DNA from: Micromonospora sp. DSM 45708
GTDB taxonomy: Bacteria > Actinomycetota > Actinomycetes > Mycobacteriales > Micromonosporaceae
DNA length: 64,000 bases
NCBI RefSeq assembly: GCF_039566955.1
Contig: NZ_CP154796.1
Coordinates: 4,402,001-4,466,000 of the forward strand
Reading direction: 5' to 3'
Positions 50,762 to 62,863 of this stretch are shown here, one piece after another. The stretch's first letter is position 1. Each line of letters begins with the position of its first letter. The translations under genes and the position numbers were made by a program. The notes under the pieces are model-generated. The model searched no databases. It saw only the letters and a list, made by a program, of their open reading frames with translations, and was not told the DNA's origin.

Positions 50762-53700
50762 ATGACCGACGTCCTGCGGCCCCGGCGAACGGTGCCCGCC
50801 CCACCGGCGCGGGACCGCTCCGGCCACCCCGCGCCGGCGACCGCCGCGCAGCGCCAGATGTGGCAGTTGGACCGCCTCGACCCGGGCTCGGCCGGCTACC
50901 TGGTGCCGCTTGCCTACCGGCTGCACGGCCCGCTCGACGTGGCGGCGCTGTCCGCCACGCTGGACGAGCTGGTGGCCCGCCACGCCGCGCTGCGCACCAC
51001 GCTCGCACCCGGGCCGTCCCACGACGCCCCGGGCGCCGGAATCCCGCACCCGGGCGGGGACGGTACGGACACCCCGCTCGTCCAGGTGGTCCACGAACCG
51101 CGCCCGGGGCTGCTGCGGGTGCACGACCTCAGCGGACTGCCGAGCTGGCACCGGGACCGGGAGGTGGCCGCCCGGCTGCGCGCCGCCGGCCGGGACCCGC
51201 TCGACCTGACACACGGGCCGGTGCTCCGGGCCGATCTGGTGCGGTGCGCGCCGGAGGAGCACGTGCTCCTGCTGACGTTCCACCACGTCGCCATCGACGA
51301 GTGGTCGCTGGGCCTGCTGCACGAGGAGTGGGAACGGCTCTACGCGGCGTACCGGGCCGGGCGGCCGGCCACGCTCGACCCGGTCGAGGTCGACTGCCGC
51401 GACCACGCGCGCCGGCAGCGGGAGTGGCTCGCCGGCGCGGAGGCGTCCGCCCAGCTCGACTACTGGCGGGAGCAGCTCGCGGGCGCGTCCGCGGCGCTGG
51501 ACCTGCCCACCCGGGGACCCCGCCCGGCGGTGCCGTCCGGCGCCGGCGCCACGCTGTCGGTGCCGCTGGACGTGCCCACCGGGGAACTGGCCGCGTTCTG
51601 CCGGCGCGCGCGGGTGTCGCCGTACATGGTGCTGCTGGCGGTGCTGCACGTGCTGCTGGCCCGGTGGACCGGCGAGCGGGACGTCGTGGTCGGCACGCCG
51701 GTGGCCGGCCGGCGCGACCCGGAGACGCGGCAGCTCGTCGGCCTGCTGCTCAACACCGTCGCGATCCGGGCCCGGCTGGACGACGACCCGTCCTTCACCA
51801 CGCTGCTGGAGCGGGTACGCGTCGCCGTCCTGGACGCCCTGAGCCGGGAGGAACTGCCCTTCTCGACGGTGCTGGAGACGCTGCGCCCGACCCGCCGGGC
51901 CGGCTTCAGCCCGCTGTTCCAGGTGATGTTCGTGTACGGCCGGGAGGCCGCCCCGCCCCGCCTGGACGGCCTCCAGGTGAGCACCGTCGAGGTGCCGGTC
52001 GGAACCGCCAAGTTCGACCTCACGGTGGCCGTCCGGGAGGACGACCGGGGGCTGCGGACCGTGTTGGAGTACCGCACCGACCTGTTCGACGCCGACCTGA
52101 TGACCCGCCTGGCCGGGCACTTCCGGACGCTGCTCGCGGCGCTGCTGACCGACCCGGACACGCCGGTCGGCTCGGCCGCGATGCTGACCGCCGACGAGCA
52201 CCGGCGGCTGGTCGCCGAGTGGAACCGGACCGCCACGCCGGCCGAGCCGGACGAGCTGGTGCACGCGTTGATCGAGGAGCAGTCCCGGCGTACCCCCGAC
52301 GCGGTGGCGGTGACCGACGGCGACGCCGCGCTGAGCTACCGGGAGCTGCACGCGCGGGCCGAGGCGCTGGCGGAGACGCTGCGCGCGCGGGGCGTCGGCG
52401 TCGGCGGCCTGGTCGGCGTGCTGCTGCCCCGCGCGGTCGGATTCACCGTGGCGGTGCTGGCGGTGCTGCGGGCCGGCGCGGCCTACGTGCCGATGGACCC
52501 GGCGAACCCGCCGGCCCGGCTGCGGCACCTGATGGACGACACCGCCGCGCCGGTGGTGCTCACCTGCGCCGAACTGGCGCACCTGGTGCCCGGCGACGCG
52601 GCGCTGCTGGTGCCGGGGCCGGACGCCCCGGCGCCCGCAGGCGCGACGGCACGCGGCAGCGGACCCCGGCGTCGGCCGCGCCGCCGGCCGGCGCCCACCG
52701 CGGACGACCTGGCGTACGTCATCCACACCTCCGGCTCGACCGGCCGGCCGAAGGGCGTCATGGTCACCCACCGGGGGGTGGCCAACTACGTGCGCTGGGC
52801 CACCCAGGCGTACCGGCTGCGCCCCGGTGACGTGGTCCCGCTGCACTCCTCGGTCGGGTTCGACCTGACCGTGACCAGCCTGCTGGTGCCGCTGGCGGCC
52901 GGCGCCACGGTCCGGATGATCGGCGAGCACCTCGGCCCGGCCGCGCTGGGCGAGGCGCTGCGCGACACCGCCACGCCGTTCGGCCTCGTCAAGATCACCC
53001 CTGCCCAGCTCGAACTGGTCACCCACCAGCTCCGCCCGGACGAGCTGGCCGGTCGCACCCGGTGCTTCGTCATCGGCGGCGAGAACCTGCGCGCCGACCA
53101 GGTCGCCCCGTGGCGGACGCACGCGCCGGAGACCGCGCTGGTCAACGAGTACGGCCCGACCGAGACGGTGGTCGGCTGCGCCGCGTACGAGGTGGAGCCG
53201 GAGACGCCGACCGACGGCTCGGTGCCGATCGGCCGGCCGATCGCGAACACCGCGCTCCACCTGCTCGACGGCTGGGGCAACCCGGTGCCGGTGGGCGTGG
53301 TCGGCGAGCTGTACGTCGGCGGGGCCGGGGTGGCCCGCGGCTACCTGGGGCAGCCGGGCCGCACCACCGAGCGGTTCCTGCCCGACCCGTTCTCCGGGGT
53401 GCCCGGCGCGCGCCTCTACCGCACCGGCGACCTGGCCCGCCGCCGCCCGGACGGCGTCCTGGAATACCTGGGCCGCACCGACCGGCAGGTCAAGGTACGC
53501 GGCTACCGGGTGGAGTGCGGCGAGATCGAGGCGGCGGTCCGCCGCCACCTGCCGGCCGCCGACGTGACCGTCCACCTGCGCCACGACGACCCGACCGACC
53601 CGCGGCTGGTCGCGTACCTGGCCGGCGACGACGAGGCGGACCCGGCGGAGCTGCGCGCCGCGCTCGCCGCCGAGTTGCCGTCCTGGCTGGTGCCCGCCGC

Positions 53701-62863: not shown

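Follow-up and report, generated by a model that had tools for sequence, protein, structure and literature searches.

In MprF, a synthase-flippase, a single polypeptide both makes a small molecule and moves it, and the same holds for NF006386, an acyl-[ACP]-phospholipid O-acyltransferase that includes an MFS part; both are lipid enzymes and neither is an NRPS. MFS transporters of the TIGR00900, Mef and EntS types are free-standing proteins. Producers must move their products out of the cell, and to our knowledge the coupling of product release to export is mostly unknown. For the thioesterase (TE) described here the closest solved relative is ObiF1 (PDB 6n8e), the beta-lactone-forming obafluorin synthetase, which has the organization C-A-PCP-TE-MLP and in which, as in the protein described here, an extra domain is fused behind the TE (an MbtH-like protein in ObiF1, according to the available part of PMC6668435). 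The TEs of ObiF and of SulM (sulfazecin, PDB 8w2d) have a cysteine nucleophile together with an Asp at position II, as given in the available parts of PMC6668435 and PMC11298585, and the available part of the latter mentions no MFS for SulM.

The window is the whole 64,000-nucleotide stretch analysed from Micromonospora sp. DSM 45708 (NZ_CP154796.1). It contains an open reading frame of 4047 aa (50720-62863, + strand), stop-free throughout, in which Pfam places the domains C-A-T-KS-AT-T-C-A-T-TE-MFS in one frame. Profiles scoring above their gathering scores are those for condensation (two stretches), adenylation (two), PP-binding (three), KS, AT, TE and MFS_1/MFS_3; the C, A and carrier domains thus share a frame with KS-AT as in hybrid NRPS-PKS proteins, and the layout is that of one PKS module between two NRPS modules. 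GC3 is 0.97 across the whole frame, as in a coding frame, and an in-frame ATG at 50762 (MTDVLRP...), downstream of 50720 and preceded by GGAGG, is the likelier true start. The first NRPS module consists of a condensation domain (50810-52159, limits approximate, the pieces having been mapped on orthologues), an adenylation domain (52220-53779) and a carrier domain (53975-54169), the latter two also with approximate limits. The PKS module follows with a ketosynthase (54242-55369; PF00109 at residues 1175-1424, PF02801 at 1432-1550), an acyltransferase (55808-56629; PF00698, residues 1697-1970) and the second carrier (57023-57214; PF00550, residues 2102-2165), and the second NRPS module with a condensation domain (57398-58762, residues 2227-2681), an adenylation domain (58844-60313) and the third carrier (60365-60574, limits approximate). 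A preliminary description of this DNA had reported an unbroken frame running from condensation through KS/AT and TE to an MFS transporter of about 12 helices, with the TE directly before the transporter and synthesis and release tied to the transporter as a single polypeptide, and all three points are borne out by the domain order and the stop-free frame.

The TE (60602-61339) matches PF00975 at 64.5 bits, with its best stretch at profile positions 2-99 of 226, and has Cys3383 (in GHCVGG) as nucleophile, Asp3501 at position II, His3531, and Gly3409 at position I where an Asp is usual. These are the features of ObiF/SulM-like cysteine TEs, and ObiF1 likewise has Gly at the usual Asp position and its Asp at the later one. 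The best solved match of the T-TE part is ObiF1 (E=1.4e-52) with SulM second, and that of the TE alone is again ObiF1 (E=1.3e-39), followed by the type II TE BorB; SulM is a much weaker match to the TE alone, at 33 bits over a part. A Foldseek search with the structure model ranks ObiF1 first and the SulM PCP-TE second, then NorA for the MFS part, and the TE of another fusion in the same genome also ranks ObiF1 first. ObiF1 lacks an MFS and activates a beta-hydroxy amino acid at its last A domain, whereas the protein described here has a Gly-like last A code and a PKS module. The Gln-Cys-Asn motif given for SulM in the available part of PMC11298585 is absent and is replaced by His-Cys-Val.

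The MFS domain (61526-62722) has 12 predicted membrane helices, matches PF07690 at 105.7 bits (threshold 33.4) and carries motif A (GALADRWDRR, with Asp3662 and Arg3663) at residue 3658; twelve long helices are also present in the low-confidence structure model. The best curated NCBIfam models are of the TIGR00900, Mef and EntS kinds, H+ antiporters with which the domain shares motif A, and NorA is among the top fold matches of the protein. Membership of TIGR00900 (H+ antiporter) is not reached, the score being 213.4 bits against a cut-off of 319.6, and membership of the enterobactin exporter family EntS (NF007792) is rejected at 89.3 bits against a cut-off of 324. The transporter had been described as EntS-like, a loose label given that EntS scores 89 bits and TIGR00900 213, both below their cut-offs. 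NF006386 matches at 63 bits through its N-terminal part, and the likeness of NF006386 and MprF to this protein lies in the maker-mover layout, the comparison covering the MFS part. A C-terminal tail (62723-62860; dN/dS 0.15-0.43) completes the protein.

Other TE-MFS fusions, for which the preliminary description had recommended a search, are numerous in related actinobacteria. The genome itself carries three NRPS-TE-MFS fusions. A survey of 41 genomes (its own, 24 of the genus and 16 of the order) with the MFS as query (E<=1e-40) gave 37 matches in 23 genomes, and domains were mapped at every one of them; in 31, including the three of this genome, the TE shares a frame with the MFS, and an MFS without a TE is found in the other six. 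At least one fusion is present in 17 of the 24 other genomes of the genus. When 198 genomes were sampled evenly across the phylum, with no more than eight candidates scored in each, no fusion was seen outside this genome; MFS matches occur in six genomes including its own, those in the other five being in frames of just 453-627 aa. The fusion had been called rare, which fails for relatives but agrees with the phylum-wide draw. With the TE as query, five of 118 genomes of the class, including its own, have matches at E<=1e-20; among the eight matches outside this genome, seven are fused (in three genomes) and one, in genome G232, is not.

A second MFS query, taken from another fusion of the same genome, matched 23 of 80 genomes in one family of the same class (75 matches, 70 of them in frames 1,687 aa long or longer) and 20 of 101 genomes of the order (30 matches). 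Frame length is merely suggestive of fusion, as long frames mislead in GC-rich DNA, and we opened 40 long-frame loci of our own choosing, 33 from the 75 matches and seven from the 30. At 39 of the 40 a TE immediately precedes the MFS and shares its frame. A long frame is refuted as proof of fusion by L177/L186, one of the 70 long-frame matches in that family, where the MFS lies in a spurious 2035-aa frame and an NRPS (C-A-T, with no TE found) lies in another. Plasmids carry the fusion as well, in records from two strains of Embleya and from Streptomyces clavuligerus (three of 31 matching records opened, all three fused). In one locus (L187:1862-15250) the fusion is 4463 aa long with the organization C-A-T-C-A-T-C-T-C-A-T-TE-MFS, one module lacking a detected A domain, and its TE motif, read in L173, which covers the same place, is YSHC. 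Some groups of actinobacteria have the fusion commonly, and in many other groups none was found. The protein described here appears from these comparisons to be one member of an old actinobacterial TE-MFS fusion family and not a lone oddity. A literature search found no description of NRPS-TE-MFS fusions, which is weak evidence because most subscription journals are outside its coverage. A product name in use at NCBI is 'non-ribosomal peptide synthetase/MFS transporter', and annotators have therefore probably already come across the architecture itself.

Phylogenetic comparisons suggest a single old fusion event. In the MFS tree (65 sequences) the 50 fused members lie on one side of a branch (97/67, and 96% of bootstrap trees), for which the SH-aLRT value of 67 is modest, and in the TE tree (63 sequences, without two duplicates and one fragment) the 49 fused members form one clade (95/93). 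TE and MFS distances are correlated among 48 proteins (r=0.96) and among 18 representatives more than 25% apart (r=0.84, a value reached in none of 2000 permutations). Because the fused TEs form one clade, the fused MFSs form one clade and the two have co-diverged, one old fusion would account for the family. The protein described here belongs to this family as we define it, its TE and MFS sharing one frame and falling in the fused-TE and fused-MFS clades respectively.

Ten loci with unfused sister MFSs were opened. NRPS or PKS domains adjoin the MFS in eight (L125-L130, L139 and L186), and the domain pieces used found none at L131 and L140. With eight of ten unfused sisters beside NRPS or PKS genes, the exporter family was probably tied to such clusters before the fusion arose. 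At four loci (L125, L126, L129 and L186) the unfused MFS directly follows NRPS/PKS genes and no terminal TE was found with the domain pieces; these are possible natural split versions of the TE-MFS arrangement. The sister loci also fit a scenario of self-resistance, in which the MFS mainly protects the producer by clearing the cytoplasm of its product, however released, and the fusion serves only to couple expression. The NCBIfam relatives, MFSs for drug efflux and siderophore export (TIGR00900, Mef, EntS), are in keeping with it. Retention of one fusion over two deep clades suggests something more than shared expression, and we consider this scenario unlikely, although it overlaps with the release-and-export unit that we favour and the co-divergence of TE and MFS does not separate the two.

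The cysteine nucleophile is shared by 83 of 87 other fused TEs, 47 of 48 in a first set and 36 of 39 in a second, with near-copies counted; the first set leaves out a fragment (L018), a copy of L015 (L049) and the TE described here (L011, also Cys). Position I, an Asp in EntF-like TEs, is Gly or Ala in all 87, and the position II Asp and the His are present in all 87. Four fused TEs (L133, L157, L160 and L168) have Ser, so that Cys is not invariant in the family; all four share GHSSVGSA, retain the position I Gly/Ala and the position II Asp, and represent a possible single reversion. Nor is Cys exclusive to the fusion, as it is present in three of the four nearest unfused NRPS TEs. More distant unfused TE-like domains have Ser in ten of 11, and since the nearest unfused TEs are mostly Cys and the distant ones mostly Ser, the cysteine probably preceded the fusion.

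The junction between the TE, which ends at about 61339, and the MFS, which begins at about 61526, is a linker (61340-61525) that varies greatly in length and sequence among orthologues. Scanning 84,980 species genomes with patterns from one protein, which would miss distant fusions, yielded 13 loci. TE, linker and MFS are in one frame at nine other Micromonospora loci (L012-L017, L019, L020 and L022), and six of these have the full domain set from the first C to the MFS. Of the other four, L018 contains a run of N and a broken frame, L021 stops within the TE, and L023 and L024, both from Chloroflexota, have an MFS with no TE found in its frame by domain mapping. The preliminary description had recognized that an error removing a stop or start between TE and MFS would undo the fusion; orthologues spanning the junction in frame make this unlikely, and with nine other Micromonospora loci maintaining the frame we discount a sequencing or assembly error. 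It had also allowed for a separately started MFS. This is unlikely here, as the stretch from the TE histidine to the first helix contains no ATG, GTG or TTG other than one GTG at the helix itself, but in-frame starts are present within the linker proper in nine of the 11 orthologues listed, and a separate MFS from an internal start may be less securely dismissed for these than for the protein described here. Post-translational proteolysis might also split the MFS from the assembly line.

Variation in the linker among orthologues takes the form of in-frame insertions and deletions, while conservation is good on both sides of it, in the TE and in the first helices of the MFS. Linkers range from 31 to 101 aa among the mapped proteins. 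Against seven orthologues, and using simple NG86 counts over 15 regions of a GC-rich genome, dN/dS is 0.51-1.12 in the linker (near-neutral), 0.15-0.24 in the TE and 0.03-0.16 in the MFS, which is the lowest of the 15 regions in six of the seven pairs; the exception is the L012 pair, in which the last carrier (0.03) is below the MFS (0.06). Purifying selection on the MFS is thus the most intense in the entire protein, or close to it. Such constraint speaks against the MFS being a mere membrane anchor for the assembly line with its transport function lost, as does retention of the motif A Asp and Arg residues in 47-49 of 49 fused MFSs, which an anchor would not need. With or without transport, the fusion would hold the last module at the membrane, and a flexible linker suits an anchor, but we regard this explanation as very improbable.

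An AlphaFold2 model built from 11 sequences has 12 long helices behind a disordered linker, with low confidence (mean pLDDT only 58.9), and it is unusable as evidence for a direct channel. It had been proposed that the product is handed from the TE to the pump. In the strictest form of this idea, the TE active site would dock at the cytoplasmic opening of the MFS, and the bulk cytoplasm would never receive the product, an arrangement with which the immediate precedence of the TE at 39 of 40 second-set loci and the TE-MFS co-divergence agree. Common descent alone predicts the co-divergence, though, and a linker that is hypervariable, near-neutral and disordered in the model speaks against a rigid channel; direct docking thus seems to us exceedingly improbable, and the proposed handing over is better understood as closeness of TE and pump.

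A plausible scenario, and one that we think likely from the conserved frame and its domains, is that this is a real and functional NRPS-PKS assembly line in which the C-terminal release domain and the exporter form one unit held by a flexible linker. The chain would move from the last carrier to the TE cysteine, and the TE would release a small peptide-polyketide, probably through cyclisation. The MFS, a drug-exporter-like antiporter tethered near the release site by the flexible linker, would then pump the product out. The fusion would act through local concentration, a fixed 1:1 ratio and membrane placement, with no rigid tunnel, and such proximity, fixed ratio and membrane location of the TE and MFS are plausible. 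Having release with conserved unusual chemistry and putative export in one protein, in many actinobacteria, makes their coupling directly testable, and a Cys-TE followed by an MFS provides a simple sequence marker for finding new molecules.

The nature of the product can be approached through the A domain specificity codes, which were taken from alignment columns located by GrsA numbering and with the final K assumed. The first A domain reads DLTKVGEVGK and the second DMPQVGLVWK, which we take to be Asn/Asp-like and Gly-like respectively; DLFNCALTYK in the next gene and DAKDLGLVDK in a later NRPS gene are presumably Ala-like and Glu-like. Pfam found no KR in this ORF. The chain would then end in malonyl-Gly, a terminus compatible with a Dieckmann-type tetramate or with simple hydrolysis, and the Gly-like reading of the last A domain speaks against an ObiF-style beta-lactone in this ORF, such a ring being impossible on Gly. 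In many other fused lines the last code is DVWHISLIDK, presumably a Ser code, which would allow a strained four-membered ring in those lines, and further fused lines end in what we take to be Orn-, Cys- or Asp-like codes. One Ser-ending fusion belongs to the same genome (3602605-3608091, minus strand). One tentative reading, on balance rather unlikely, is that the TE-MFS serves as a dedicated release-and-export unit for hydrolytically labile products, in which the Cys-TE would close a ring that is strained or reactive (a serine beta-lactone in the Ser-ending lines, possibly a Dieckmann-type tetramate here) and the tethered pump would remove it before it reacts in the cytoplasm. If this is true, genome mining for TE-MFS would give access to many electrophilic peptides that have not been seen so far.

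The fusion gene is probably the first of an operon. Immediately downstream is an NRPS gene with the organization A-T-C (62860-64000, + strand, continuing to about 66078 past the window), whose GTG start overlaps the preceding stop by 4 bases, followed by TauD-like genes and then the later NRPS gene. Queries with these three (the A-T-C gene, TauD and the later NRPS) all match downstream in eight of ten Micromonospora loci; of the other two, L015 ends too early and L019 has only weak matches elsewhere. To the right of the window there are two TauD-like dioxygenase genes after the next NRPS gene (L011:8100-10135), one recognized by Pfam and the other by eye from its translation, and these dioxygenases may hydroxylate the Asn/Asp residue.

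Among the various other features of this genome, we note that lantibiotic-dehydratase-like proteins (PF04738) are encoded near its two other NRPS-TE-MFS genes (L142:9384-14947 at about 3.62 Mb and L144:791-4345 at about 2.16 Mb), one of them fused behind a thioesterase. These surroundings resemble the PEARL-containing NRPS-PKS clusters described in the available part of PMC11212132. In two different clusters of the genome an FkbM-type methyltransferase domain lies behind an A domain (L011:10009-15390 and L143:4949-7738).
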